Shown piece after piece: positions 18,605 through 64,000 of a stretch of DNA of 64,000 nucleotides. Under the pieces are notes generated by a model. It worked only from the letters and a program-made list of their open reading frames with translations. It ran no database searches and had not been told where the DNA came from. A program made the position numbers and the translations under genes. Position 1 is the stretch's first letter; each line of letters begins with the position of its first letter. The DNA lies in the NCBI RefSeq assembly GCF_024171565.1, contig NZ_JALJZZ010000006.1, positions 186,001 through 250,000 on the forward strand, written 5' to 3'. This stretch comes from Okibacterium sp. HSC-33S16 (GTDB taxonomy: Bacteria; Actinomycetota; Actinomycetes; Actinomycetales; Microbacteriaceae).

Positions 18605-20389
18605 GTGAAGCATTCGCTCTCGACGCGGCGTCGGGTGGCCGCAGCAATCGTCTGCGTGATCGCCATCGTCGGTGTCTTCGTCGTTCGGCTCGTTGACATC
18701 CAGGTCGTCCGCGCCAGCCAACTCGTTGACGACTCACTCGCTAAAACGTCGAGCGCAGGAACCATTTACGCGCCTCGCGGGTCCATCGTTGACACCAATG
18801 GAACCATGCTGGCTGGCAGCGTCACGTTGTTCGATGTCACGATCTCACCGAAAGACGTGGACGAGTTCACGAGGACCGGTGAGGACGGGAAGAAAGAGAC
18901 CGTCAGCGTCGAGCAGGCCATGGCTGAGATCGGTGCCGTCACCGGCCAGACCCCGGAAGAACTGCTCGCCATCGTGGACAAAGCTCTTGAGGTCGATGCC
19001 TCAAGCAACTTCGCCTATCTGATCAAAGGCGTCGAGTATGACACCTACCAGGCGCTGCTCACACTCAAGAAGCAGGGGATCTGGTGGATCTACCCGAAGC
19101 AGACCTCGGGCCGCACATACCCCAACGGGGCGATCGCCGGTGGTGTGATCGGATACGTCGGCAGTGACAACGTGGGCCTCGGCGGACTGGAGCTTTCGGA
19201 GAACAGCTGCCTGAGCGGCGTCAACGGCCAAGAGGCCTACCAGCGAAGCAAAGATGGAGTCGCGCTCCCCGGCACCACCACCGTGACGAAGGAAGCGGAG
19301 CCGGGTGGAGAGCTCAAGCTCACCCTGGACGCCGACCTCAACTGGTTCATGCAACAACTCATCGCATCGCAGGTGCAGGCGCAGGCTGCAGCGTGGGGAA
19401 CCATCACGGTCACCGAAGCGAAGACGGGCAAGATCCGGGCCATCGCCGAAGCGCCGTCGCTCGACCCCAATGACGTATCGGCGACCCCGTCAGACGACCG
19501 CCGCTCGCGAGTCTTCCAGAACCGGTTCGAACCGGGCTCTGTGTTCAAACCACTCACCGCAGCGTCCCTCATCGACGCGGGAGTCGCGACGCCGTCGTCC
19601 CACGTCGTCGCCGACTACCGCTACAAGCCGTCGAATGGCGCAAGCATCAAGGACGCCCTGCCGCACGAGCGCCAGCAACTCACCCTCGCGGGTGTCCTGC
19701 AGACCTCCTCCAACACCGGCACCAGCCAGCTCGGTGAGAAGCTCAGCCCCGAGAAGCGCTACAACTACCTCGACGCTTTCGGAATCGGCCACAAGAGTGA
19801 AATCGGATTCCCAGGCGAGCAACGCGGAACCCTGCACCCGTGGGAGGAATGGGACAACCAGACCTACTACACCACCATGTTCGGACAGGGCGTTGACGTC
19901 ACCGGAATTGAGCTGGCCGGTGCTTATCAGGCCCTCGCCAACAGGGGTGAGAAACTCCCACTTCAACTCATTGAGGGCTGCACGTACCCGGACGGCACCG
20001 TCACCGACGTGCCGGAGAAGGCGAAGCCCGAGCGCGTTGTGTCCGAAGAGGCTGCCCTGCAAACGCTGGGAATGATGGAAACCGTGGTCACCGAGGGCTT
20101 CTGGTCAGAGGAGCTTGAGATCCCGGGTTACCGCGTAGCTGCCAAGTCCGGAACAGGTGAGCAAATCATCGGCGGTATACTTCAAGACACGTTCTATTCA
20201 TCCATGGCCGGCGCAGTTCCGGCCGACGACCCTGAATACGTCGTTACCGTGACCCTGAAAGATCCGCTCTACAAGCGCTCATCAGCGGCAGCGGCACCCG
20301 TTTTCAAGGAAGCCGTCCTCCAGGTGATCAAGAAGTACGGAATCCCACCGTCGACAACGCCCGGCGCCGATTACCCGGGCTACTACTAA
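18605..20389 (+). CDS. ftsI: Septal peptidoglycan transpeptidase (class B PBP, FtsI/PbpB)
   Basis: A 594-residue class B penicillin-binding protein that cross-links septal peptidoglycan. One N-terminal transmembrane helix (about 10-30) is followed by the PBP dimerisation domain and the transpeptidase domain. The active-site motifs are SVFK (Ser312), SSN (368-370) and KSGT (514-517). The start is a GTG at 18605 with AAGGA upstream. It follows the ftsL-like gene by 30 bp. In most actinobacteria murE comes next, but here murF follows after 79 bp. Confidence 0.95.
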   Translation: MKHSLSTRRRVAAAIVCVIAIVGVFVVRLVDIQVVRASQLVDDSLAKTSSAGTIYAPRGSIVDTNGTMLAGSVTLFDVTISPKDVDEFTRTGEDGKKETVSVEQAMAEIGAVTGQTPEELLAIVDKALEVDASSNFAYLIKGVEYDTYQALLTLKKQGIWWIYPKQTSGRTYPNGAIAGGVIGYVGSDNVGLGGLELSENSCLSGVNGQEAYQRSKDGVALPGTTTVTKEAEPGGELKLTLDADLNWFMQQLIASQVQAQAAAWGTITVTEAKTGKIRAIAEAPSLDPNDVSATPSDDRRSRVFQNRFEPGSVFKPLTAASLIDAGVATPSSHVVADYRYKPSNGASIKDALPHERQQLTLAGVLQTSSNTGTSQLGEKLSPEKRYNYLDAFGIGHKSEIGFPGEQRGTLHPWEEWDNQTYYTTMFGQGVDVTGIELAGAYQALANRGEKLPLQLIEGCTYPDGTVTDVPEKAKPERVVSEEAALQTLGMMETVVTEGFWSEELEIPGYRVAAKSGTGEQIIGGILQDTFYSSMAGAVPADDPEYVVTVTLKDPLYKRSSAAAAPVFKEAVLQVIKKYGIPPSTTPGADYPGYY

Positions 20390-20468
20390 CCCACGTGCGC
20401 GAGACAAAAGTGTCCTCTCGCGCCATCGGCACCCGTGCGAGCGCCTGCGTGCCTGAAAGAAATTTTTT

Positions 20469-21884
20469 ATGATTCGTTTAACCCTGTCCGAGATTGCCGA
20501 TCGCCTGTCCGGTTCCCTCCATGTGGAAGGAACGGATGCCACGGGCGATACAGCCGTGGACGGTCCCGTTGAGACTGATTCCCGTGAGATCGTGCCGGGT
20601 GGGGTTTTCATCGCCAAGCGCGGTGATGACACCGACGGTCACCTCTTCGTGGATGCTGCCGTCGAACGGGGCGCAGCGCTGGCCATTGTGGAGCATCCCG
20701 TCGACGCCCCGGTTGCGCAGATCGTCGTTCCGGATGCGGTCACGGCGTTGGGAGAGCTTGCGCAGTTCGTCGTCGAGCGCGTTCGTGCCGTCGGCACGCT
20801 GACCGTCGTCGGGATCACCGGGTCGAACGGTAAGACGACCACGAAGAACATGCTCGAGCGCATTCTCGCGGGGGAGGGCGAGACGGTGGCTCCCATCCGC
20901 TCGTTCAACAACGCCGTCGGCGCGCCCACCACAATGCTCCGCATCACCGAGTCGACGCGTTACCTCATCGTTGAGATGGGAGCGAGCGGCATCGGGCACA
21001 TTGCACGCCTCGTTGCCCTCGCGAAACCGGACATCGGTGTTGTCCTCAAGGTCGGTCTGGCACACGCCGGCGGCTTTGGCGGAATCGAGTCGACCCTCGC
21101 CGCGAAGACCGAGATGGTCGCCGACCTGTCGGCTGACGGCGTTGCCATCCTCAACGCCGACGACCCCCGGGTTGCGTCTATGGCCGACAAGACCCGCGCC
21201 CGAGTTGTCACATTCGGTCAGGATGCCTCCGCCACGATTCGAGCCACCAACGTCGCCGGTACCCGAACGGGCACGTCGTTCACCGCACATGTCCCCGGCG
21301 AGGAATCGGTGTCGGTGCGGCTGCGCGTACTCGGTGAGCACCACGTTTCGAACGCACTCGCCGCACTCGCTGCCGCGCACACCCTGGGCGTCCCGCTGGC
21401 ACGCGCTGCCGCAGCCCTGGAGACGTTGGAGCGCGCTGAGCGCTGGCGTATGGAGGTGCTCGGCGGTAAGAACGACGTCACTATCATCAACGATGCCTAC
21501 AACGCCAGCCCCGACTCCATGTCGGCTGCGATCAAGACTCTTGCCCAGATTTCAGAGCCGGGGAAGCGCACAATTGCCGTCCTCGGGGCGATGAGCGAAC
21601 TCGGTGAGTATTCCGGTGATGAGCACGACCGCATCGGTCTCCAGCTCGTTCGTCTCAACATTTCCCGGCTTGTTGTGGTCGGCCCCGAGGCGCGCCGCAT
21701 GCACATCAGCGCCATCAACGAAGGTTCGTGGGACGGTGAGAGCGTGTACTTTGGCGATATGGATGCTGCTTACGACTACCTCGCTGCAGAAATCATCCCC
21801 GGAGATACGGTGCTCGTAAAGTCCTCGAATTCCGCCAAGTTACGATTCCTGGGTGACCGGTTAGGAGAACTCTTCTCGTGGTAG
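20469..21884 (+). CDS. murF: UDP-N-acetylmuramoyl-tripeptide--D-alanyl-D-alanine ligase
   Basis: A 471-residue Mur ligase that adds D-Ala-D-Ala to the UDP-MurNAc-tripeptide, the last cytoplasmic step of the stem peptide. The P-loop [11 protein letters not shown] is at about 118-128, and [20 protein letters not shown] and [11 protein letters not shown] mark the MurF subfamily and distinguish it from MurE. Three-domain length is normal. The ATG at 20469 has only a weak purine-rich stretch (GAAAG) upstream. The last codons overlap the mraY start by seven bases. Confidence 0.95.
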
Positions 21885-22972
21885 CACTCCTCACGGCCGG
21901 CGCACTGTCCATGGCGTTCTCGCTGTTCCTCACACCAGCGTTTGTGAAACTATTCCGGAAGCTCCAGTGGGGCCAGTTCATCCGGGACGACGGACCCAAG
22001 TCGCACCACGCCAAGCGGGGAACGGCGACCATGGGCGGCATCGTCATCATCGCCGCGACTCTCTTCGGCTTCTTCACCGCCATGCTCATCACGGGCGACG
22101 CGATCAGTGTGTCCTCGCTCCTCGTGCTCTTTATGATGGTGGGTCTTGGCGTCGTGGGCTTCATTGACGACTTCACGAAGACCCGCAAACAGCGCAGCCT
22201 CGGGCTCGGGGGATGGGCGAAGGTCTTCGGTCAGGTGATCGTCGCGGTGATCTTCGGTATTCTCGCGATCAACTTCCCCAGCGCTGAGGGCGTCACACCC
22301 GCGTCGACAGCGATCTCCGCGACCCGCGACTTGCCGATCAATCTCATGATCCTCGGGCCGGTCATTGGTGTGGTCCTCTACCTGCTCTGGACAAGTTTCA
22401 TCGTGACCGCAACCTCCAACGGAGTCAATGTCACAGACGGTCTCGACGGACTCGCCACAGGTGCGTCCATCCTGGCCATCGGCTCCTACGTCGTGATCGG
22501 GTTCTGGCAGTACAACCAGTCCTGCTTCGGTTCATCGCTCGCAGACGAAGTCGCATACAAGTGCTACGAAGTTCGAGACCCACTGGCTCTGGCCATCGTC
22601 GCCGCAGCTATTTGCGGATCCCTCATCGGCTTCCTATGGTGGAACACATCCCCGGCGTCCATTTTCCTTGGTGACACCGGTTCGCTCGCCCTCGGTGGTG
22701 CCATTGCGGCCCTCGCGATCCTCACCCGCACCGAGCTGCTCCTCGTCCTCATCGGCGGCCTCTTCGTCATCGAGACGGGCTCCGTCATCGTCCAGCGTGC
22801 CTACTTCAAGATCACCCACGGCAAGCGGATTTTCCGGATGAGTCCAATCCACCACCACTTCGAACTCAAAGGCTGGGCCGAGGTGACGGTCGTGGTCCGG
22901 TTCTGGATCGTCGGTGGGCTCCTCGTCGCCGCCGGTGTCGGAACCTTCTACCTGGAATGGATCCTGCGCTAA
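21878..22972 (+). CDS. mraY: Phospho-N-acetylmuramoyl-pentapeptide-transferase
   Basis: An integral membrane enzyme of 364 residues with about ten transmembrane helices. It transfers phospho-MurNAc-pentapeptide to undecaprenyl phosphate, giving lipid I. Catalytic and signature segments include [24 protein letters not shown] (Asp-Asp pair), [12 protein letters not shown] and [12 protein letters not shown] with the HHH motif near the C-terminus. The GTG start overlaps the murF stop and follows TAGGAGA. Confidence 0.97.
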
Positions 22973-22974
22973 CC

Positions 22975-24492
22975 ATGTCCGATCGTTTGAACTCGCTGAC
23001 CAGCTGGCACGCCGACTGGAAAGACCTGAAAGTTGCTGTCCTCGGTCTGGGCGTCACGGGCTTTGCCGCAGCGGATACGCTGGCCGAACTTGGAGCAGAC
23101 GTTCTCGTCCTCGCCCCGGAAGGTGAGAACGAGCGAGCCGGTCTCGTCAACGTGATCGGCGCGCGACTCGTTCAAACCGAGCTCAGCACGGTTCCCGCCG
23201 AACTGGTTGAACTGCGCCCAGACGTCATCATCGTTTCCCCGGGATTTCACCCCGATCACCCCATTCTTGAATGGGCCGCCACGCAGAGTGTCCCGGTGTG
23301 GGGAGACATCGAACTGGCCTGGCGCGTGCGCGACAAAGTGGGAACTCCGGCCGAGTGGATCCTCGTCACCGGCACCAACGGCAAGACGACCACCGTCCAG
23401 CTCACGGCCGCCATGCTCGCCGAAGCTGGGCTGCGAGTTGCTCCCTGCGGCAACATCGGCGTGCCCGTGCTCGACGCCGTTCGCGACCCACAAGGTTTCG
23501 ATGTCTTCGTCGTCGAGCTCTCCAGCTACCAACTGCACTACCTCAGCGGTCAATCGGGTCCCGACTTCGTCACTCCGCACTCGAGTGCGTGCCTCAACAT
23601 CGCCCTGGACCACATCGACTGGCACGGTTCCTTCGAGGCGTACGTGACGGCAAAGGGTCAGGTCTACGACCGCACGCGCGTTGCCTGCATCTACAACAAG
23701 TCCGACTCGCGCACTGAGGCGCTGCTTCGGGACGCGGAGGTCGAGGAGGGCGCCCGTGCGATCGGTTTCGACCTCGGTGTTCCCGGTCCAAGTGACTTCG
23801 GCATCGTCGACGGCATCATCGTCGATCGGGCGTTCCTCGATGAGCGATCCACCTCGGCGCTCGAGATCACCACGATCGACGACCTCGATGCTGCCGGCCT
23901 CGCGGCCCCCCACATCGTCGCCAACGTACTTGCCGCAAGCGCTCTCGCCCGCTCGTATGGAGTGACACCCGCCCAGGTCCGCTCGGCACTTGCGAAGTTC
24001 CGGCTCGATGCCCACCGAATCCAGCTGGTCCTCACCAGCGGAAGCATTAGCTGGGTTAACGACTCGAAGGCTACGAACCCGCACGCCGCGAACGCATCAC
24101 TGGCCGCATACCCATCAGTGGTGTGGATTCTGGGCGGCCTGTTGAAGGGCGTTGACGTCAGCGAACTCATCGCCCGGCACAGCGACAGGCTCCGAGGAGC
24201 GGTCGTGATTGGTAAGGATCGGTCGGCCGTGCTCAGCGCATTCCAGCGACACGCGCCGCACGTCCCCCTCGTCGAGGTCGACGCAGATGACACTGAAGAT
24301 GTCATGCCGCAAGCCGTCGATCTTGCATCGAAAATCGCGGTGGCTGGCGACGTGGTGCTCCTTGCACCGGCTGCGGCATCGATGGACCAGTTCATCGATT
24401 ACGCGGAACGTGGCCGACGTTTCTCGGATGCTGTACGTGAACGATGGGAAGGTGAGGCAGATGACCGCCCCACCAACCGACCGTCTGCGTAG
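22975..24492 (+). CDS. murD: UDP-N-acetylmuramoylalanine--D-glutamate ligase
   Basis: A 505-residue Mur ligase that adds D-Glu to UDP-MurNAc-L-Ala. The N-terminal nucleotide-binding GLGVTGFAAADTLAELG (about 26-42), the P-loop GTNGKTT (133-139), CGNIGVPVLDA and the C-terminal NDSKATNPHA are typical of MurD. The ATG at 22975, two bases after the mraY stop, gives the usual N-terminus. An in-frame ATG at 22957 would overlap mraY and is less likely. The 3' end overlaps ftsW by 32 bp. Confidence 0.94.
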   Translation: MSDRLNSLTSWHADWKDLKVAVLGLGVTGFAAADTLAELGADVLVLAPEGENERAGLVNVIGARLVQTELSTVPAELVELRPDVIIVSPGFHPDHPILEWAATQSVPVWGDIELAWRVRDKVGTPAEWILVTGTNGKTTTVQLTAAMLAEAGLRVAPCGNIGVPVLDAVRDPQGFDVFVVELSSYQLHYLSGQSGPDFVTPHSSACLNIALDHIDWHGSFEAYVTAKGQVYDRTRVACIYNKSDSRTEALLRDAEVEEGARAIGFDLGVPGPSDFGIVDGIIVDRAFLDERSTSALEITTIDDLDAAGLAAPHIVANVLAASALARSYGVTPAQVRSALAKFRLDAHRIQLVLTSGSISWVNDSKATNPHAANASLAAYPSVVWILGGLLKGVDVSELIARHSDRLRGAVVIGKDRSAVLSAFQRHAPHVPLVEVDADDTEDVMPQAVDLASKIAVAGDVVLLAPAAASMDQFIDYAERGRRFSDAVRERWEGEADDRPTNRPSA

Positions 24493-25675
24493 CGAGGAAA
24501 CCGGCGCCAGAAGCACGAGAATCCGTCTGGGCGCATACATCCGCCCGGAGTCCAGCAATTACCTGCTCGTCCTCTGCACCACCGTCTTCCTCGTGGGTGT
24601 CGGACTGGTCATGGTGCTTTCGAGCTCATCGGTCGATTCATTCCTCGACAACAAGGGTTTCTTCGGCGGATTCTGGAAACAGGCCACCTACGCACTCATC
24701 GGCATCCCGCTCATGCTGGTCATCTCCCGCATCCCGGTGCGCTTCTGGAAGAAGTGGGCATGGCTTGCACTCTTTGGCGCCCTCATCCTCCAGCTCCTCG
24801 TCTTCAGTCCTCTCGGTATTGCCGAGGGTGGTAACCGAAACTGGATCGCGGTCGGACCCATCAACGGCCAGCCGTCGGAGCTGCTCAAGCTCGCCCTGGC
24901 CGTCTGGCTCGGGTTCATCCTGGGCAAAAAGATCAACCTGCTGAGCAACTGGAAGCACGCGCTTATCCCGGTTGTTCCTGTCTCCGCTCTGGCGCTCGGA
25001 CTGGTTCTGGGCGGCCACGACCTCGGAACCGTTGTCATCATGGCGGGCATCGTCATCGGCGCCATGTTCTTTGCCAACCTCAAGCTTCGTTATGTGCTCG
25101 TGCCTTTCCTCGCCGGCATCGCGCTTTTCGCGGTTATGGCTCTCATCAGCCCGAACCGCATGGCGCGCATCCTCACCTTCCTCGACGCGGAGTGCGCTGA
25201 CTACGAGAACCTGTGCTGGCAACCCCTCCACGGCACCTGGGCGTTGGCCAACGGGGGAGTGTTCGGACTCGGCCTCGGAAACTCCCGCGAGAAGTACTCC
25301 TGGCTTCCAGCGGCATCGAATGACTACATCTTCGCCATCATCGGTGAAGAGCTCGGCCTCATCGGGGCGACCGTCGTGCTCATCATGTTTGTCCTTCTCG
25401 CCGTCTCTTTCGTTCGCGTGATCCGATCGAGCACCGACCCATTCGTTCGCATCACCACCGGCGCCATCATGGTCTGGATTATCGGCCAGGCTTTCGTCAA
25501 CATTGGCGTCGTTCTCAGGCTTCTCCCGGTTCTCGGTGTTCCACTTCCCTTTATCTCCGCGGGAGGAACGGCACTCCTGACGTCCCTCTGCGCCGTCGGC
25601 ATCGTGCTCTCGTTCGCGCGAGAGCAAGCCACGAAACCCCGATTCCCCGTAACAGGAGAGCGATACACCCGATGA
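24461..25675 (+). CDS. ftsW: Septal peptidoglycan glycosyltransferase FtsW (SEDS family)
   Basis: A 404-residue SEDS protein with about ten transmembrane helices that polymerises lipid II together with FtsI. Recognisable segments are VMVLSSSSVDSF, GGNRNWI, QPSELLKLA, GGHDLGTVVI, YSWLPAASNDYIFAIIGEELG and the C-terminal LPVLGVPLPFISAGGTALL. The acidic residue of GGHDLGT is the presumed catalytic Asp. The ATG at 24461 lies inside the end of murD, after GAAGGTGAGG. The frame is open far upstream, but the residues before this ATG are not conserved. The stop overlaps murG (ATGA). Confidence 0.95.
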   Translation: MTAPPTDRLRSEETGARSTRIRLGAYIRPESSNYLLVLCTTVFLVGVGLVMVLSSSSVDSFLDNKGFFGGFWKQATYALIGIPLMLVISRIPVRFWKKWAWLALFGALILQLLVFSPLGIAEGGNRNWIAVGPINGQPSELLKLALAVWLGFILGKKINLLSNWKHALIPVVPVSALALGLVLGGHDLGTVVIMAGIVIGAMFFANLKLRYVLVPFLAGIALFAVMALISPNRMARILTFLDAECADYENLCWQPLHGTWALANGGVFGLGLGNSREKYSWLPAASNDYIFAIIGEELGLIGATVVLIMFVLLAVSFVRVIRSSTDPFVRITTGAIMVWIIGQAFVNIGVVLRLLPVLGVPLPFISAGGTALLTSLCAVGIVLSFAREQATKPRFPVTGERYTR

Positions 25676-26754
25676 CGAATTACCTCCTCGCCGGCGGAGG
25701 AACCGCTGGCCACGTCAATCCACTTCTTGCAATTGCGGATGCCATCACTGAACGTGATTCTGACGCTCGCGTTTTCGTTCTGGGTACGAAGGAAGGACTC
25801 GAAGCCCGCCTCGTTCCCGAGCGAGGCTATGAACTCCTCACCATCGAGAAACTCCCGTTCCCCCGACGGGTCAACCGCTCGGCGTTCAGCTTTGCCCCGC
25901 GCTTCTCCGCAGCTGTTCGCAACGTTGTCGACATGATTTCCACCCATCAGATCGACGTCGTCGTTGGCTTCGGTGGATACGCATCGGCTCCGGCTTACCT
26001 CGCCGCCCGACGTGCGAAGGTGCCCCTCGTCCTCCACGAGGCGAACGCCAAGCCCGGGCTCGCCAATCGCCTCGGTGCCCGGTACACCCGGTTTGTCGGC
26101 GTCGCCTTCCATGGAACCCGCTTGCGCAACTCCCGGTTCGTCGGAATGCCGCTCCGTCGCGAGATTGAACGGCTCGACCGTGACGCGGCCCGCCGGGAAG
26201 CACGCGACGTTTTCGATCTTGCTGACGACCGCCCAACACTCCTCGTCACCGGCGGTTCCCTCGGAGCACGCAAGGTGAACCGCACGATCTACGATTCCCG
26301 CGACATGATTATCGACGCCGGATTCCAGATCCTGCACATCACCGGCGACAAGTCAGACCTGACCGATCCGGGCACCCGGCACTACCGCATGGCACCGTAC
26401 TGCGACCGCATGGATCTCGCACTCGCTGTGGCGGACTTTGCGGTCTCACGCGCGGGAGCCGCGACGGTGTCGGAGCTCAGCGCCCTGGGTATTCCGGCGG
26501 CCTACGTTCCCTACCCGGTTGGGAACGGTGAGCAGCGCTATAACGCCGCTGACGCCGTGAACGCCGGCGGAGCGGTGATTGTTCTCGATGCGAAGTTCAC
26601 CCCCGAGTGGATCTCGTCGTCGCTCATCCCGCTCATGACCGATCGCATGCGGGTCCAGGACATGGCCGTTCAGTCGCGGCTAATGGGAACACTCGAAGGA
26701 TCCAGCCGAATGCTGACCCTCATCGACGAGGCAGTCGGCTCGTCCTCGTCCTGA
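25672..26754 (+). CDS. murG: UDP-GlcNAc--lipid I N-acetylglucosaminyltransferase
   Basis: A 360-residue GT-B enzyme that converts lipid I to lipid II at the inner face of the membrane. The glycine-rich loop [16 protein letters not shown] is at 8-23, and [34 protein letters not shown] and [24 protein letters not shown] are MurG motifs. Length is normal. The start overlaps the ftsW stop by four bases. Confidence 0.96.
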
Positions 26755-26818
26755 CTCCCATCCGACGGGCTTAAACTCAAGCTGCCACACGGCGCGAACC
26801 ATCAACAGGAAGTACAGC

Positions 26819-28216
26819 GTGATCAAACCCGACTTCAGCATCGAGATTCCGAGTGAACTGGGCGCTGTCCATTTCGTGGGCATCGGCGGATCAGGGATGA
26901 GCGGCATTGCTCGCCTCTTCCTCGCGGCCGGTCACACGGTCACCGGCTCCGATGTTCGTGACTCCTCGAACATCGCGGCGCTGCGTGAGCTGGGCGCAAC
27001 CATCGCCATCGGGCACGACGCCGCCAACGTCGGTTCGGCTGACACCCTCGTGGTGACCAGCGCACTCTGGCCGACCAACCCGGAGTACGTCCTGGCGCAG
27101 GAACGGGGCATCCCGGTGCTGCACCGCTCCCAGGCCCTTGCCTGGCTCATCAACCAGAAGCGCCTGGTGGCAGTTGCGGGTGCGCACGGCAAGACCACTT
27201 CCACGGGCATGATCATCACCGGCCTGCTTGGCCTGTCCGAGAGCCCCAGTTTCGTCAACGGCGGCGTCATCGAGTCGCTTGGCGTCTCGAGTGCCACCGG
27301 CACCGGCGAGCTCTTTGTGGTCGAGGCTGACGAGTCTGACGGCTCCTTCCTCCTCTACGACACGGCCGTCGCTTTGATCACCAACGTGGATGCCGACCAC
27401 CTCGATCACTATGGATCGCTCGAGGCGTTCGACGACGCGTTCGTGGAGTTCGCCCAGAAGGCATCCGAATTCGTTGTGATCTCGTCCGACGACCCCGGTG
27501 CTGTTCGGGTCACCAAGAAGCTGACCAACAAGCGCGTCATCACGTTCGGCGAAAGCCCTGATGCAGACGTTCGAGTATCGTCAATCAGCACCGAGGGACC
27601 CGTCTCGTTCATCGTCAGCTTCGAGGGGCAGGACAACGGCGCGACGCTCCGCATCCCGGGCAAGCACAACGCCATCAACGCGGCCGGCGCTCTCGCCGTC
27701 CTCGTCGGCCTCGGCTTCGGAGCCGCTGAGTCCCTCGCTGCGATCGCCGAGTTCGGTGGCACCGAGCGGCGCTTCGAACTCCACGGAACCGTCGACGGCG
27801 TCAGCGTGTACGACGACTACGCTCACCACCCGACCGAAGTAGCTGCAGCCCTGTCGGCCGCGCGCACGGTCGTCGGCACTGGCCGCATCATCGCTGTGCA
27901 CCAGCCGCATCTCTACAGCCGGACCCGGCTGATGGCTCGCGAATTCGCAGACACCCTCGAGTCCCACGCCGACCAGACGATCGTCCTCGACGTCTACGGC
28001 GCTCGGGAGGATCCCGAACCTGGCGTGACCGGTGCCCTGGTGTCGGAGAAGTTCACCGACCCGTCTAAGGTGAAGTTCATCTCGGACTGGCAGGACGCCG
28101 CAGACTACGTTGCCTCGATCGCCCAGCCCGGCGACTACGTCATTACGCTGGGCTGCGGAGACGTGTACCGGATCGTCCCGCAGCTGCTGGGGTCGCTCAC
28201 GGCCGCGCGGGACTAA
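26819..28216 (+). CDS. murC: UDP-N-acetylmuramate--L-alanine ligase
   Basis: A 465-residue Mur ligase that attaches L-Ala to UDP-MurNAc, the first stem-peptide residue. N-terminal [15 protein letters not shown] (about 19-33), the P-loop [11 protein letters not shown] (121 on), [18 protein letters not shown] and HQPHLYSRT are MurC signatures. The GTG start at 26819 follows ACAGGAAG. A 64-bp gap after murG separates it from the tightly overlapping murF-murG set. Confidence 0.96.
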
Positions 28217-28219
28217 GCA

Positions 28220-29143
28220 ATGAAACGACCCTCCGGCTTTACGCCGCAGCGGCCGGCGGAGACCGGTGGAGCGGCCGAACGTCCGGCCGACGGCGCACGG
28301 GCCCCACGGGCAGATCCGATCCCGTTATTCGGTCGAGAGGCGTCGACGCCGTCTGCCGAGACACACACCGAGGCTCCCGCGCCACGGCCCGATTGGGTGA
28401 ACCCGCGCGAGGCGCGCAAGCGCCGTAAGCGTGTCGAAAAGGCCGAGGTCAAGCGATTCACCGCAACCTCGCGCCGCCTGCGTCGCAATTGGCTGATCGG
28501 AATCGGCAGCATCCTCGCCCTGGCGCTCATCGCTGTTCTTGCGGCGTACACGCCCGTTCTCTCCGTTCGCCAGATCCAGGTCGAGGGTGCCTTCCGGGTC
28601 AATTCCGACGCCGTGGTGAAAGACCTGTCTAGCCAGCTCGGCTCGCCGTTTCCCCTCGTTGACGACACCGCCATCAAGGCAGCGCTCGTGCAATACCCAC
28701 TGATCGAGTCATACTCGGTCCAGGCGCGACCGCCATCGACACTGATCGTGCGTTTGGTTGAGCGTACTCCCGTCGGCACGGTCGCCACTCCGACTGGATT
28801 TTCTGTGGTGGATGCCGCTGGCGTCGTTATTGAGCAATCGGAAAGTCAGCCGGCGAACTATCCGTTAATCGCCGTTGACGGTGGAACGGAAGCACCCGGT
28901 TTCCTTCCCGCCGCTGCCGTGCTGCGGAGTCTCCCTGATGAGCTGTTTGCCACCGTCGATGAGGTCACCGCGACGACCCAGGACGATGTGAGCTTCACCC
29001 TGCGCGAGAGTGAGGCGCGCATCGTCTGGGGCAGCTCGGACGAGTCAAAGCTCAAGGCATACACGCTCACTAGGCTCATGGCGTCACAACCGGGGTTCGA
29101 CGTCTACGACGTCAGCTCGCCGAGCGTCGCCGTCGTTCGGTAG
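28220..29143 (+). CDS. ftsQ: Division protein FtsQ
   Basis: A 307-residue bitopic protein of the divisome. It has a long basic, Pro-rich cytoplasmic N-terminus (about 95 residues), one transmembrane helix (about 94-114), a POTRA domain starting at VRQIQVEGAFRVN and a beta domain with VERTPVGTV and the FSVVDAAGVVI segment. FtsQ links FtsL/FtsB and FtsW/FtsI to the ring. The start lies three bases after the murC stop. It is followed by a 149-bp gap with the ftsZ leader. Confidence 0.93.
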   Translation: MKRPSGFTPQRPAETGGAAERPADGARAPRADPIPLFGREASTPSAETHTEAPAPRPDWVNPREARKRRKRVEKAEVKRFTATSRRLRRNWLIGIGSILALALIAVLAAYTPVLSVRQIQVEGAFRVNSDAVVKDLSSQLGSPFPLVDDTAIKAALVQYPLIESYSVQARPPSTLIVRLVERTPVGTVATPTGFSVVDAAGVVIEQSESQPANYPLIAVDGGTEAPGFLPAAAVLRSLPDELFATVDEVTATTQDDVSFTLRESEARIVWGSSDESKLKAYTLTRLMASQPGFDVYDVSSPSVAVVR

Positions 29144-29257
29144 TCGCGCGATTTTCTCCACCGGATCACCGACACGCGGGGAGTCGTCCCGTCCGCGGGG
29201 GGAACTGGCCCTAACGTCAATCACAAGAAATGCATACTGAGCATAACTTTAAACCTT

Positions 29258-29268
29258 AACCTGAGGTT
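29258..29268 (+). promoter_or_regulatory. Palindrome in the ftsZ leader
   Basis: AACCTGAGGTT is an 11-bp inverted repeat 25 bp before the ftsZ GTG. It lies in an AT-richer stretch (GCATAACTTTAAACC) that stands out from the GC-rich surroundings and includes possible -10 elements (CATACT at 29233, CATAAC at 29242). It could be an operator or part of the ftsZ promoter. Confidence 0.35.
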
Positions 29269-29292
29269 GAGAGTTCTCACCGGAGGCCGGAC

Positions 29293-30489
29293 GTGACTAC
29301 AAACCAGAACTACCTTGCCGTAATCAAGGTCGTCGGCATTGGCGGCGGCGGCGTCAATGCTGTCAATCGAATGATTGAGCTCGGCCTTCGCGGCGTCGAG
29401 TTCATCGCCATCAATACCGACGCGCAGGCGCTGCTCATGAGCGACGCCGACGTAAAGCTTGACGTCGGTCGCGAGATCACTCGCGGTCTCGGCGCAGGTG
29501 CCGATCCCGAGGTTGGCCGACGCGCCGCCGAGGACCACGCGGAAGAAATCGAAGAAGCACTCGCCGGCGCAGACATGGTCTTCGTCACGGCGGGTGAGGG
29601 TGGTGGCACCGGTACCGGTGGCGCTCCCGTCGTTGCTCGCATCGCCAAGTCGATCGGCGCCCTGACCATCGGTGTCGTCACGAAGCCGTTCGGTTTCGAA
29701 GGCCGCCGTCGCCAGGCCCAGGCCGAGCTCGGCGTCGCCAAGCTCAAGGAAGAAGTCGACACACTTATCGTCGTGCCGAACGACCGCCTGCTGGAAATCA
29801 GCGACCGGGGCATCAGCATGCTCGAGGCGTTCTCGACCGCCGACCAGGTGCTCCTGGCTGGTGTTCAGGGGATCACCGACCTCATCACCACCCCCGGCCT
29901 TATCAACCTCGACTTCGCTGACGTCAAGAGCGTCATGCAGGGCGCGGGTTCCGCACTCATGGGAATCGGTTCCTCTCGCGGTGCCGACCGTGCCATCAAG
30001 GCGGCGGAGCTCGCCGTCGCATCTCCGTTGCTCGAAGCTTCGATCGAGGGCGCTCACGGAGTGCTGCTGTCCATCCAGGGCGGGTCCAACCTCGGTATCT
30101 TCGAGATCAATGACGCAGCGCGTCTTGTGCAGGAAGCGGTCCACCCCGAGGCCAACATCATCTTCGGTGCCGTTATCGACGACACCCTCGGTGATGAGGT
30201 TCGCGTCACGGTCATCGCTGCTGGTTTCGACGGGGGAGAGCCCCCGTCGCGCGGTGGCGAGTCGGTTCGTGACGCCGTTATGACGACCGGTGGCGTGATG
30301 ACCAGCACTCCAGCCGCAGCTGCTGCTGCGTCTTCCGGAAGCAGTGAGACGCCCGTGAGTAGTTCGGTGCTGACCGAGGCACCGCAGACTTGGCGCGTGA
30401 CCGAAGAAGCATTGTCGACTCCGCCAGCAACCGCCGACCCGGCGTTCGCTGACGAAGACGAGCTCGACATCCCCGATTTCCTCAAGTAG
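29293..30489 (+). CDS. ftsZ: Cell division protein FtsZ
   Basis: The tubulin-like GTPase that forms the Z ring, 398 residues. Nucleotide-binding [16 protein letters not shown] near the N-terminus, the tubulin signature [11 protein letters not shown] (about 103-113) and the T7 loop [11 protein letters not shown] define it. An acidic/Ala-Ser-rich linker leads to the C-terminal peptide [10 protein letters not shown], the docking site for partners such as SepF, whose gene lies 750 bp downstream. The start is a GTG with CCGGAGG upstream. It probably has its own promoter in the 149-bp gap after ftsQ. Confidence 0.98.
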
Positions 30490-59905: not shown

Positions 59906-60849
59906 GCGCGCCGGTGGGGGCACGCGACGCGAGCCTGCCTGCGGATGGGGCCGTCGAAGAATCACACGATGTCCGGAGGCTGCCGATCCGGCTGCCGGTC
60001 GACGGGGGAGCGGTGTCGGGAGCGGTCATCATTCCAGCCCACAACGAGGCGGCCGTGATTGCCCGGACGCTGAAAAGCCTGGGCGCCCTGTCTGACGCAC
60101 CGCAGCTGGAGATTATCGTCGTGTGCAACGGATGCACTGACGACACCGCTGAGGTTGCACGACGTATGCCGGGCGTCACGGTGCTCGAGACGACCGAAGC
60201 GTCGAAAACTGCGGCGCTCAACCATGGCGACGCTTTCGCATCCCGGTGGCCGCGCCTTTACCTTGATGCCGATATCGACATTTCGCCATCAGCGGTACTC
60301 GCCGTCTTCGACGAGCTGAGGTCGCCTGGGGTGGATGCGGCTCGGCCACGCTACGTGTACGACACCTCCAGTGCTTCTCGTCCCGTTCAGGCTTACTATC
60401 GCGCACGAAGTCGCATTCCTGCGCCTCCGCTCCGCTTGTGGGGCGCTGGCGGGTATGCGGTCAGCGAGTCCGGGCACCGTCGCTTCTCGGAATTTCCTCA
60501 GGTCACGGCGGACGACTCGTGGATTGACACGCAGTTCGCGGACCATGAAAAGCGCATCGTGCCGACGCTGCCGATGCGCGTTCGCACTCCGCGCGACCTC
60601 TCCGGACTCCTTGCCGTTCTCACTCGACAACGGCGGGGGCAAGTGGAACTCGGAGTCCCGTCGACGACGACCAGTCGCGGACGGTCACTCGTTGCATCGG
60701 TGCGAGGACCGCGCAGCGCAGGTGATATGGCATGGTATGTCCTCCTGACCGCGGTGGCCAGAAGGAGGTCTCGCATTGCGCTTCGCGCTCGAGACCGGGC
60801 GTGGGAGCGGGACGCCTCCAGTCGACCCGCCGAGGGGGTAGAGGCATGA
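59902..60849 (+). CDS. Family 2-type glycosyltransferase
   Basis: A 315-residue GT-A fold enzyme. SGAVIIPAHNEAAVIARTL starts the nucleotide-sugar domain (about 39-57), IIVVCNGCTDDTAEVA follows, and the metal-binding DAD is at 122-124 (LYLDADIDI). ADDSWIDTQF is the region with the catalytic base. No membrane helix is evident, unlike many exopolysaccharide GT2 enzymes. The ATG overlaps a tiny leader ORF, and its stop overlaps the GMC oxidoreductase start (ATGA), so the two enzymes are made together. The sugar and acceptor are unknown. Confidence 0.86.
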   Translation: MSAPVGARDASLPADGAVEESHDVRRLPIRLPVDGGAVSGAVIIPAHNEAAVIARTLKSLGALSDAPQLEIIVVCNGCTDDTAEVARRMPGVTVLETTEASKTAALNHGDAFASRWPRLYLDADIDISPSAVLAVFDELRSPGVDAARPRYVYDTSSASRPVQAYYRARSRIPAPPLRLWGAGGYAVSESGHRRFSEFPQVTADDSWIDTQFADHEKRIVPTLPMRVRTPRDLSGLLAVLTRQRRGQVELGVPSTTTSRGRSLVASVRGPRSAGDMAWYVLLTAVARRRSRIALRARDRAWERDASSRPAEGVEA

Positions 60850-62534
60850 ACGGTAGAAACAAACGTCCGATGCGCGTGGGGGCTGTCGATTGCTGTGTGG
60901 TGGGGGCGGGCCCGGTCGGCCTCGCCCTCGCCCTCGAAGCGGCCGATGCCGGTCTCTTCGTTCTCCTGGTGGACGCGGGGTCCGAACGCTCAGCCGAGCG
61001 GAATATCCCGAAACCCGCTGGCGGCCCGGATCTCATCGCCAACCCCGATCGGCACGCACCCATTGAGCAGGTGACGCGACGGGGGATCGGGGGAACGTCC
61101 TCGCTGTGGGGCGGGCGCTGTGTCACATTTGAACCGATCGACTTCGAGCGCAGAGACTTCGTGCCCGATTCGGATTGGCCTCTCACCCTCGATGACATCA
61201 CACCGTGGCAGGCTGCGGCTGCTGACTATCTTGACTGCGGCCAGGCGCGCTTTCGAACGGCTAAGGCTGACTGGGCTGAACTCCCGGATATCGAGACGAC
61301 GCAGCTTGAGCGTTGGTCAAAGCAACCGAAACTCGCCGATCGCCTCGGGCGTCGCGTGCGGGAGCACCCCAATATCACCGTCCTGCTCAATGCCCCTGTC
61401 GTCGATCTGACCTTCGCGCCCGGGGGAGAGGTGACCGCGCTTGTGGTTCAGCAACGCGGTGAACGCCAGGATGTTCGGGCCGCGCACTATGCACTGGCCA
61501 TGGGGGGACTTGAGACCACGAGGCTGCTGCTTACCGTCCAACGTTCCCACCCGACGATGTTTGGTGGCATCGATGGTCCGCTCGGTCGCTACTACATGGG
61601 ACACGCCTCGGGGAGTGTCGCCGATGTTGTTTTCACAGAGCCGAAGCGCGCCAGGGAAATGGATTTCACCCAGGACCCTGATGGCACGTACTTGAGGCGG
61701 CGGTTCACGCTGTCCGAAGAGGCGCAACGGCGTAACGAGATCCTCAACACGAGTTTCTATGTCGACAACCCGCCGTTTTACGAAGTTGGGCATCGGAACG
61801 CCACCCTCTCGCTCGTCTACCTCGGACTGGTCATCCCTTTCATCGGGCGACGGCTCCTCGCCGAGGGTATTCGGCTGCGGCACATCGGTGAGCCACCGCG
61901 TCGGATCGGAGCGCACATCCTGAATGTTTTGCGGCGACCGTGGAGAGCAGCTGCGGACGTTCTCGACGTCCTGGTCCATCGCTATATTTCGGCTGTGCGC
62001 AAGCCGGGCTTCATTCTTCACAATGACTCGGGACGCTACGCCTTGCACTATCACGGTGAACAGATCCCGAACCCCGACAGTCGACTAAAGCTTGCGTCCG
62101 GTCGGGAAGGCCCCCGGCTCTCCATCGACTTTCAGTTCGCCGACCAGGACATCGAATCAGTTCTCCGTGCCCACCGCCTCCTGGATGCACAGCTACGGTC
62201 GGCGGGCATCGGCCACGTCGAATACCTGGCGAAAACCGAGGAGGAGGTACGCGCAGGGGTGTGGGAGCAGGCGATTGACGGGTTCCACAGCATTGGGACA
62301 ACCCGGATGAGCAGGGAGCCGGGCGACGGCGTCGTCGACGCCGATTGTCGCGTTCACGGATCAGCGAACCTCTTTATCGCATCGAGCAGCGTTTTTCGAA
62401 CCGCCGGCGAAGCGAACCCAACCTACCTTGCCGCGTGCCTGGCAGTGCGGTTAGCTCATCACCTGGCCGAACTCAGTGCTGAAGTAGCGCCGATGCGGAT
62501 CGAGAAAAGCCCGTCGGTCCCGTTGGCGTCCTAG
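60846..62534 (+). CDS. GMC-family FAD-dependent oxidoreductase
   Basis: A 562-residue flavoprotein. The dinucleotide-binding VGAGPVGLALALEAADAG lies near residues 19-36, GGTSSLWGGRC is the flavin-contacting segment, and the C-terminal GMC domain has HSIGTTRM (His481) and GEANPTYLAA (Asn524), a His/Asn catalytic pair. Family members oxidise alcohols or sugars. Coupling to a glycosyltransferase suggests that it oxidises a sugar or glycosylated product of that enzyme. No signal peptide is visible, so it probably acts in the cytoplasm. The substrate is not known. Confidence 0.87.
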   Translation: MNGRNKRPMRVGAVDCCVVGAGPVGLALALEAADAGLFVLLVDAGSERSAERNIPKPAGGPDLIANPDRHAPIEQVTRRGIGGTSSLWGGRCVTFEPIDFERRDFVPDSDWPLTLDDITPWQAAAADYLDCGQARFRTAKADWAELPDIETTQLERWSKQPKLADRLGRRVREHPNITVLLNAPVVDLTFAPGGEVTALVVQQRGERQDVRAAHYALAMGGLETTRLLLTVQRSHPTMFGGIDGPLGRYYMGHASGSVADVVFTEPKRAREMDFTQDPDGTYLRRRFTLSEEAQRRNEILNTSFYVDNPPFYEVGHRNATLSLVYLGLVIPFIGRRLLAEGIRLRHIGEPPRRIGAHILNVLRRPWRAAADVLDVLVHRYISAVRKPGFILHNDSGRYALHYHGEQIPNPDSRLKLASGREGPRLSIDFQFADQDIESVLRAHRLLDAQLRSAGIGHVEYLAKTEEEVRAGVWEQAIDGFHSIGTTRMSREPGDGVVDADCRVHGSANLFIASSSVFRTAGEANPTYLAACLAVRLAHHLAELSAEVAPMRIEKSPSVPLAS

Positions 62535-62606
62535 CGACGAGGGGTGCCGGAACCTCCGGGCAGACGGGCGACTGGGGAGATGGTCGGGAAGGGCCGCCCG
62601 TAACTT

Positions 62607-62634
62607 ACTTGACATAATGTGCATTATCGGAACA
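62607..62634 (-). other. dif: Putative chromosomal dif site (XerCD recombination site)
   Basis: Read on the minus strand, the 28 bp consist of an XerC arm TGTTCCGATAA, a 6-bp centre TGCACA and an XerD arm TTATGTCAAGT. The 11-6-11 layout and both arms match the actinobacterial dif pattern (CCGATAAT, then ACATTATGTCAAGT) as I recall it, and the XerD arm resembles the E. coli TTATGTTAAAT. It lies in the 249-bp intergenic gap between the GMC gene and the HdeD-like gene. Confidence 0.85.
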
Positions 62635-62783
62635 AAGTGAAGTGGGGCTTGGGCTCAGAAGGCTCTGGCATCAATCCGCTTCTGTGGTGCACAATCGAGC
62701 ACAGCGGCTTCCGGCACGGGAATCAGGATCACGCACTAGCGACGCTCAGTGAACCGGACAGGAACCCGAGATCGGAGATCATC

Positions 62784-63353
62784 GTGTCGTATTTCTTCCG
62801 CGTCGATTCGACGTCAATTTCGGCGTCCCAAGTGAAAACTGTTCGACTCGCCATCATTGTCGCCGGCGTCGTCGCAATTCTCGTCGGAATCGCCATCCTG
62901 GTGTGGCCGCAAGCAACGCTTGCCCTCGTCGCCTGGCTCTTCGGCCTGTACTTCATTGTGAGCGGCGTCGCCCGAATCGTGAAGGCCGCGATGTCTCGTG
63001 GCCTTGCAAATTCCTACCGAGCGTTCCTCGCGGTGTTCGGGATATTACTGGTGGTCGGCGGAGCATTCGTTCTGGCGAACCCGCTCTTTGGCGTGACGGT
63101 CGTTGCGACGCTCATTGGCTTCACCTGGATACTCGAGGGCATCGGAGTCCTCGTGGATGTGCCACGAGGCCGAGCCACCTGGGTAACCGTTCTCTTCGGA
63201 ATCGTCAGCATCGCCGCTGGTGTCATCGTTCTTGTCGCGCCCGTCGCCGCGACCGTGTTCTGGTTGCAACTCACGGCCGTGCTGCTGATCGTCGCCGGTC
63301 TGATGCAGGCGATCCAGGGCGCCATGATCGGCCGCGCTCCCCGCTCCGGGTAA
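62784..63353 (+). CDS. HdeD-like DUF308 membrane protein
   Basis: A 189-residue protein with six closely spaced transmembrane helices (pattern: helices at about 22-42, 46-66, 78-97, 102-123, 134-152, 158-178) and short loops, starting after a 15-residue hydrophilic N-terminus. The repeated GIAILVWPQATLALVAWLFGLYFI and LFGVTVVATLIGFTWI-type segments match the HdeD/DUF308 family, linked to acid stress in E. coli but of unknown role here. The GTG at 62784 has CGGAGA eight bases upstream. It is the only gene between the dif site and a second copy of the XerD arm. Confidence 0.85.
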   Translation: MSYFFRVDSTSISASQVKTVRLAIIVAGVVAILVGIAILVWPQATLALVAWLFGLYFIVSGVARIVKAAMSRGLANSYRAFLAVFGILLVVGGAFVLANPLFGVTVVATLIGFTWILEGIGVLVDVPRGRATWVTVLFGIVSIAAGVIVLVAPVAATVFWLQLTAVLLIVAGLMQAIQGAMIGRAPRSG

Positions 63354-63354
63354 C

Positions 63355-63383
63355 ACCTGCCGTTACTTGACATAACGGCAGGT
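63355..63383. terminator. Hairpin between convergent genes, carrying an XerD-arm copy
   Basis: ACCTGCCGTTA and its exact reverse complement flank the 7-base loop CTTGACA. No T-run follows. It separates the HdeD-like and SDR genes and probably ends both transcripts. Thirteen bases (TTACTTGACATAA, 63363-63375) repeat those at the dif site. Confidence 0.65.
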
Positions 63384-63391
63384 CGTCCGCG

Positions 63392-64000
63392 CTACTCCGC
63401 GATGAAGTCGCTGGTGTCCCCCACATAGCGCGTGTTGTTCTCCGGGATCGGCTGCACAGCGGCCAGAGCCACCTCTGCGGCAAATTCGCCGACGTTGTAG
63501 AGCTTCCCTGCCGCGTCCTTCCGCGAGCTGATGGCCCCGGGATTTGCGCGCTCGAGCAGCGTTGCGGTGATGGTGCCCTCGATCATGTCGCCGGAGACCA
63601 CAACGAAACCGATGTTCCGTTCGGTCAGTTCCGGCAGCTTCGCCCGCAGTGCGTCCTCCCCGGCGCGCTTCGACAACGCCACCGGAATGTACTCGGGCAT
63701 CGTCGGCGTCGTACGGATGAAGTGCGCCTGGTGACTTGTCACGAACACTACGCGCGAACCCTCAGCGAGAAGCGGCATGGCGGAGTCGAGCACGTTGAGC
63801 TGGGCGTCCCGGTTCAGCTGCATGGCGTAGTCCTCGGCCATCCCGCTCTCCATTCCCCCGGATGCGTTAAGCACGAGCACATCGAGCGAACCGAACTCCG
63901 CGCGCACCGCGTCGAACATTGCCTGAACGCTCACGGGGTCGGTTAGATCGGCACCAACAGTGATCGCAGTCCCCCCGGCCGCGCGAATCTGGTCGGCCAG
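63392..64000 (-). CDS. Short-chain dehydrogenase/reductase-like protein, partial (cut by window edge)
   Basis: The C-terminal 202 residues of a Rossmann-fold SDR. LDVLVLNASGG stands where NNAG is usual, and VVFVTSHQAHF holds the usual serine. The YxxxK motif is altered: the lysine is in PVALSKRAGEDALR, but the residue four before it is Val and the nearest Tyr is seven before. The rest (DMIEGTITATLLER, AAVQPIPENNTRYVGD) fits an actinobacterial SDR subgroup. The N-terminal nucleotide-binding loop lies beyond the window. It may be an enzyme with a shifted active site or a non-catalytic SDR. Confidence 0.8.
   Translation of the reverse strand: MADQIRAAGGTAITVGADLTDPVSVQAMFDAVRAEFGSLDVLVLNASGGMESGMAEDYAMQLNRDAQLNVLDSAMPLLAEGSRVVFVTSHQAHFIRTTPTMPEYIPVALSKRAGEDALRAKLPELTERNIGFVVVSGDMIEGTITATLLERANPGAISSRKDAAGKLYNVGEFAAEVALAAVQPIPENNTRYVGDTSDFIAE

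Follow-up and report, generated by a model that had tools for sequence, protein, structure and literature searches.

Several XerD sites (XDS) are known from Bacillus subtilis, where they are defined by their likeness to the XerD arm of dif without an accompanying XerC arm. In Escherichia coli, FtsK activation is asymmetric relative to the XerD side of dif, and strain K-12 uses MukBEF, not Smc-ScpAB. The XDS of B. subtilis are said to unload SMC complexes, as reportedly described by Karaboja et al. in 2021.

Excerpts of PMC10945525, PMC13342612 and PMC11898615 also cite the XerD-mediated unloading of SMC in B. subtilis, and the excerpt of PMC13342612 suggests, from Hi-C, that SMC unloading takes place generally at dif. 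The same excerpt gives the KOPS word of E. coli as GGGNAGGG, and polar sequences termed AIMS are the subject of an excerpt of PMC5993296. Regarding the Actinobacteria, the dif sequence of Frankia alni and further actinobacterial dif predictions are printed in an excerpt of PMC3025954, which also contains the XerD-arm sequence, the other papers retrieved with this sequence bearing unrelated titles. Among the titles and abstract openings searched, we found no description of a XerD half-site beside an actinobacterial dif, and no sequence landmark for XerD-SMC unloading in Actinobacteria.

The dif site studied in this work resembles that of F. alni in its 11-6-11 layout, its single copy and its terminus position. 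A second XerD arm, overlooked in the earlier note on this DNA, lies 758 bp from dif on its XerC-arm side and in the same orientation; this satellite, and not dif, is the more interesting feature of the locus.

The dif site and its gene neighbourhood

The features of the locus are given below by their position in the window, i.e., the whole stretch of 64,000 nucleotides that was analysed.

60846..62534, plus strand: GMC-type oxidoreductase gene, accessory, on the XerD side of dif; start inferred
62607..62634, minus strand: dif, 11-6-11 bp, matching the Frankia alni dif, sole copy in the assembly
62634-62624, minus strand: XerC arm of dif, TGTTCCGATAA
62623-62618, minus strand: dif centre, TGCACA
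62617-62607, minus strand: XerD arm of dif, TTATGTCAAGT
62784..63353, plus strand: gene for a DUF308 (HdeD-like) protein, between dif and the satellite; start inferred
63355..63383, no strand assigned: perfect inverted repeat of 11 bp, loop CTTGACA, with the satellite at its centre; flanked by the convergent DUF308 and SDR genes
63365-63375, minus strand: satellite half-site, exact XerD arm TTATGTCAAGT, direct relative to dif, without an XerC arm
63392..64000, minus strand: short-chain dehydrogenase (SDR) gene, on the XerC side, cut by the window end

On sequence criteria, positions 62607-62634 are confirmed as the chromosomal dif, an ordinary site of an already-known kind. Their minus strand reads TGTTCCGATAA-TGCACA-TTATGTCAAGT and, as the earlier note had claimed, both Xer arms of an 11-6-11 bp site are found in an intergenic gap, here of 249 bp, which extends from the end of the GMC oxidoreductase ORF at 62534 to the inferred start of the DUF308 gene at 62784. 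Allowing up to 3 mismatches in the arms and any 6-bp centre, the window contained one match, and none was obtained in 100 shuffles. The near-complete match to the actinobacterial dif proposed in that note was borne out, with 24 of the 28 bases identical to the F. alni dif and the differences confined to the outer four XerC-arm bases; likewise, the single-copy check it had suggested for the 28-mer returned one match in the whole draft assembly (3,231,809 bases in 10 contigs; up to 3 mismatches) and 0 for the reversed control. The recombinases expected for such a site are encoded in the same genome: XerD (352 bits, above the cut-off, at C6:9245) lies about 240 kb from dif on dif's own contig, a second Xer-like recombinase (275.9 bits, C1:659600) is taken as the putative XerC. 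An SMC gene is present as well.

In a family-wide search allowing up to 2 mismatches, the dif core was identified in 375 of 398 genomes and in 82 of 85 genera, with 3 matches for the reversed control. With the same tolerance the core was absent from all 9 genomes of genus g58, as well as from g72 and g27, where dif may have diverged or dimers may be resolved by a different system. Additional dif-like sites with 1-2 mismatches were observed on other contigs (G026:C4, G201:C2, G284:C2, G141:C18 and C23, and G313:C15 and C20), possibly corresponding to plasmid dif sites. A phylum-wide draw using a strict pattern gave 25 matches out of 178, and few of its loci were used further.

The surroundings of dif were compared in 74 loci of the family. 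These include 17 dif loci found regardless of the satellite, with up to 10 kb per side examined, and sixty further loci, 40 picked by dif and 20 by exact arm matches, from which G069, G015 and G113 were dropped as they displayed no dif within the 8 kb or less examined; in three of the 40 dif-picked loci (G111, G028 and G103), the arm pair was known before picking. The "accessory region" of the earlier note holds in part: a homologue of the GMC gene was present in the fetched dif flanks of just 2/74 loci, whereas the SDR gene was found near dif in 43/74, always on the XerC side, and is therefore a conserved neighbour. A DUF308 homologue was located on the XerC side in 17/74 loci. The dcw cluster, placed by that note at about 30 kb from dif, is real, and comprises genes for a PBP transpeptidase, Mur ligases, FtsW, a MurG-type protein and FtsZ at 18605-30489; dif is therefore 32 kb from ftsZ.

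The replication terminus and the polar word GGGGGAG

The GC skew was weak and wavering in the sampled parts of dif's own contig, and displayed no clear switch in 21 stretches of the main contig of the relative G086; the assignment of the terminus therefore relies on the polarity of GGGGGAG and on the spacing between dnaA and dif. A comparison of 8-mers around dif revealed that CGGGGGAG changes strand at this site. Over the 210,812 of 276,812 contig bases that were counted, GGGGGAG occurred 52 times on the plus strand and 2 on the minus strand to the left of dif, and 0 and 11 times, respectively, to the right, while the cumulative GGGGAG count was highest at 248574 on the contig, at a distance of 33 bp from dif (248607-248634 in contig coordinates). 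The same rule was found throughout the 74 family loci, which represent 39 genera: 222 forward and 0 reverse copies on the XerC side, and 2 forward and 235 reverse copies on the XerD side, that is, 459 copies near dif in Microbacteriaceae with 2 contrary to the rule.

The polarity extends far from dif in G086, whose contig of 3.16 Mb carries dnaA at 82-1404 and dif at 1419548. In twenty samples of 20 kb each, taken away from the dif stretch, GGGGGAG was on the plus strand in 43 of 43 copies before dif and on the minus strand in 50 of 51 after it, with 1 exception among 94 copies; the 20 kb containing dif alone held 16 copies, versus those 94 in the 20 other samples. In four relatives with chromosome-sized contigs, the dnaA-dif spacing amounted to 44.9% (G086), 51.5% (G063), 51.0% (G129) and 47.5% (G017) of the contig. 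Because GGGGGAG flips strand there, the dif locus is, by this measure, the replication terminus; the statement of the earlier note that the site marks the terminus is thus upheld by the polarity switch, along with a dnaA-dif distance of 45-52% of the contig.

GGGGGAG is a probable FtsK guide sequence, a candidate that would point the pump to dif. It shares its polar character with KOPS and AIMS, being oriented toward dif on either replichore and enriched at the terminus, and it is unlike the E. coli KOPS word GGGNAGGG, which displayed no strand polarity in dif's own contig. Our literature search retrieved no paper pairing GGGGGAG with FtsK. In practical terms, GGGGGAG constitutes a near-perfect guide word for locating dif and the terminus in Microbacteriaceae, where GC skew fails.

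A XerD half-site on the XerC side of dif

The satellite at 63365-63375 is read as a putative accessory half-site for XerD binding. A 13-mer, TTATGTCAAGTAA, is common to dif and the satellite, where it occupies 63363-63375. The genome contains only 2 exact copies of the XerD arm, those of dif and the satellite, and only four matches with up to one mismatch, dif included. The inverted repeat around the satellite (63355-63383) has an RNA-fold z of -3.1, and a consensus scan of 62300-64000 identified neither a sigma-70-type promoter nor a T-run terminator. The palindrome was discarded as a general feature, being long only in G000 and G076 among the 30 satellites analysed, a set that includes the G054 satellite at 2956 bp, which is outside the 1-kb counts given below.

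Among the 17 dif loci found regardless of the satellite, 11 carried a further arm with up to one mismatch, in all cases on the XerC side. Its distance from dif was 235-759 bp in ten loci and 2956 bp in the remaining one, and its orientation was direct in 9 and inverted in 2. At the same tolerance and within 1 kb of dif, such an arm was present on the XerC side of 21/74 family loci and on the XerD side of 0/74, with a control of 60 permuted 11-mers that averaged 0.17 and reached at most 2. The core TTATGTCA was detected within 1 kb on the XerC side of 10 dif-found, 13 dif-picked and 6 arm-picked loci (17, 40 and 17 loci, respectively), and on the XerD side of 0, 1 and 0. By this 8-mer test, 7/17 dif-found and 27/40 dif-picked loci have no satellite; since many dif loci are without it, the satellite is not universal. 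Exact arms numbered 58 in 150 family genomes versus 20 for the reversed control, and comprise 32 dif arms and 18 satellites, 17 of which lie within 1 kb of dif. The remaining 8 were placed near no dif, and include two in G090 and one, G141:C18, that forms part of a dif-like site on a different contig.

In a hold-out of 20 further species from satellite-bearing genera, the core was on the XerC side in 12 and on the XerD side in none, leaving uncounted G305, whose own-arm copy has one mismatch and does not contain the TTATGTCA core. All 6 species examined of Mycetocola, the genus to which the host is here assigned, carry an exact TTATGTCAAGT at 301-758 bp, which is intact while the satellite flanks are unrelated among them. 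The pattern was also found, less frequently, beyond the family: in 58 loci of other families (40 spread over families, with 4 matches, and 18 from families with earlier matches, with 6), TTATGTCA was present within 1 kb on the XerC side of 10 and on the XerD side of 0, the matches being distributed as 6/13 in f62, 2/9 in f64, 1/10 in f4, 1/6 in f59 and 0/20 in the rest. Over 154 dif loci, the XerC side carried the core in 53 (46 direct and 7 inverted) and the XerD side in 1, with less than 1 kb of the XerD side readable in four of these loci and of the XerC side in none; 200 permuted 8-mers averaged 0.97 XerC-side loci, with a largest value of 6. The spacing between satellite and dif within 1 kb ranged from 62 to 759 bp, mostly 170-760 bp. 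On these counts, the recurrent satellite half-site is real. In the 11 kb of E. coli K-12 that were examined, the bacterium's own XerD arm (up to one mismatch) was absent outside dif, and the 8-base core occurred once, 3151 bp off and on the XerD side.

A separate layout, tighter than and different from that of other loci, was observed in genus g16, where an inverted XerD arm is fixed 65 bp from the XerD arm of dif in 4/4 fetched loci (L065, L066, L201 and L202). In G323, the pattern search even takes this inverted arm for a second dif-like site, 52 bp away.

With respect to the neighbouring genes, the satellite is on the far side of DUF308, as seen from dif, in G000, G086 and G064, on its near side, facing dif, in G085, G148, G063, G103, G028 and G059, and within DUF308 in G129. 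Its place thus shifts around this gene and is tied to dif, and a role as DUF308 operator was ruled out on the same grounds. By a greedy gene call, 23/30 satellites are outside conserved ORF segments; from the seven others, those of G059, G028 and G085 are outside the DUF308-homologous part, and those of G129, G044, G111 and G128 inside ORF segments conserved between genera.

The base-by-base pattern is that of a site kept near the XerD consensus, as judged from 53 satellites. Outside the eight bases that served to find them, position 9 is A in 32, G in 20 and T in 1, position 11 is T in 37/53, positions 12-13 are weakly kept, and the outer flanks have almost no conservation; where an XerC arm would be expected, identity to the own XerC arm is 29.8% over 11 positions, i.e., there is no remnant. 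The ninth base is equal in dif arm and satellite in 46/52 pairs, and 48/52 agree when split into A and not-A (Fisher 5e-10, uncorrected for relatedness). Agreement reaches 42/43 pairs in the own family, and 5/9 pairs differ in other families, so that this covariation holds at the level of the family. There is no covariation between dif arm and satellite at positions 10-11, as illustrated by G002, G086 and G149, whose dif arms end in ACA and satellites in AGT; it follows that the satellite does not duplicate the dif arm of its own locus. Taken together, these observations point to a selected XerD-only half-site, a putative extra control element at the chromosome end.

Possible roles of the satellite

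Our main reading is that the locus consists of dif plus a half-site bound by XerD, with a probability of about 0.72; that XerD occupies the satellite is probable. At dif, chromosome dimers would be resolved by XerC and XerD upon arrival of the FtsK pump. XerD would bind the satellite alone, and no recombination is expected there because the XerC arm is missing. The one-sided, mostly direct placement, mostly at 170-760 bp, suggests that the bound XerD may be a landmark or roadblock at the chromosome end which, by analogy with B. subtilis, could release or block SMC complexes arriving at the terminus. Concerning the function itself, we propose SMC release tentatively, as a first guess drawn from that analogy, and control of the FtsK side as a second. 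The absence of a satellite from the 11 kb examined of E. coli K-12, with its MukBEF, leans to the SMC reading, on one genome. A function of dif as a general SMC unloading site, as suggested in the excerpt of PMC13342612, would fit SMC release at the satellite.

Control of FtsK/XerCD recombination, and not of SMC, is the alternative that deserves most discussion, even if we consider it unlikely. XerD on the XerC side would stop or reorient FtsK coming from there, or loop to dif, with activation coming from the XerD side; the strict restriction to one side, the prevalence of the direct orientation (46 direct to 7 inverted on the XerC side), the convergence of GGGGGAG guides on dif from either side and the asymmetry of E. 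coli FtsK toward the XerD side of dif all agree with such a role. However, a spacing of 62-759 bp is loose for the geometry of looping or synapsis, and no satellite is present in E. coli K-12, the best-understood case of FtsK/XerCD control, this being one genome. The 11-mer could also be a site for another protein or signal (a -35 box, a terminator or an operator of a neighbouring gene) that merely resembles the XerD arm, given that its complement contains TTGACA, a -35 box, that the window satellite is in a hairpin between convergent genes, and that 23/30 satellites are outside conserved ORF segments. This we regard as improbable, as the satellite tracks dif and not a gene, shifting its place around DUF308, the consensus scan detected no sigma-70-type promoter or T-run terminator at 62300-64000, and satellite and dif arm share their ninth base in 42/43 own-family pairs.

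Direct orientation and a one-sided position might stem as well from an old integration at dif, leaving the satellite as a relic of a mobile element that exploits Xer, or of a duplicated dif. The absence of an XerC-arm remnant (29.8% identity over 11 positions) led us to reject the mobile-element remnant; in addition, 6/6 Mycetocola species examined retain an intact XerD arm amid unrelated flanks, and most satellites are just a few hundred bp from dif, making a leftover of either kind quite improbable. Finally, the pattern might reflect chance or biased picking, as the copy was first spotted by eye, 17/74 family loci were reached via exact arm matches, and the pair was known beforehand in G111, G028 and G103 of the dif-picked 40. 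We consider this negligible: the dif-chosen loci themselves gave 10/17 and 13/40 on the XerC side versus 0 and 1 on the XerD side, permuted controls were far lower, the hold-out gave 12 versus 0, and the side asymmetry is 53 to 1 in 154 loci.

Returning to a dif accompanied by a XerD-bound half-site, it is conceivable, at somewhat less than even odds, that in Microbacteriaceae, and less often in other families of the order, the one-sided, oriented XerD half-site is a dedicated terminus element that gives XerD a second, non-recombining job, a counterpart of XerD unloading in Firmicutes with a different geometry. Being conserved, 11 bp long and fixed in its side, the half-site makes XerD unloading of SMC outside the Firmicutes directly testable; the strict side of the satellite also bears on how FtsK or SMC reads the asymmetry of dif. 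The satellite and the XDS of B. subtilis are alike in being XerD-type sites near dif in a genome with SMC, and the satellite displays two traits of an XDS, likeness to the XerD arm without an XerC arm, and a terminus location near dif. In contrast, there are several XDS per terminus in B. subtilis and one satellite here, which belongs to a different phylum and keeps a fixed side and a mostly fixed orientation relative to dif.
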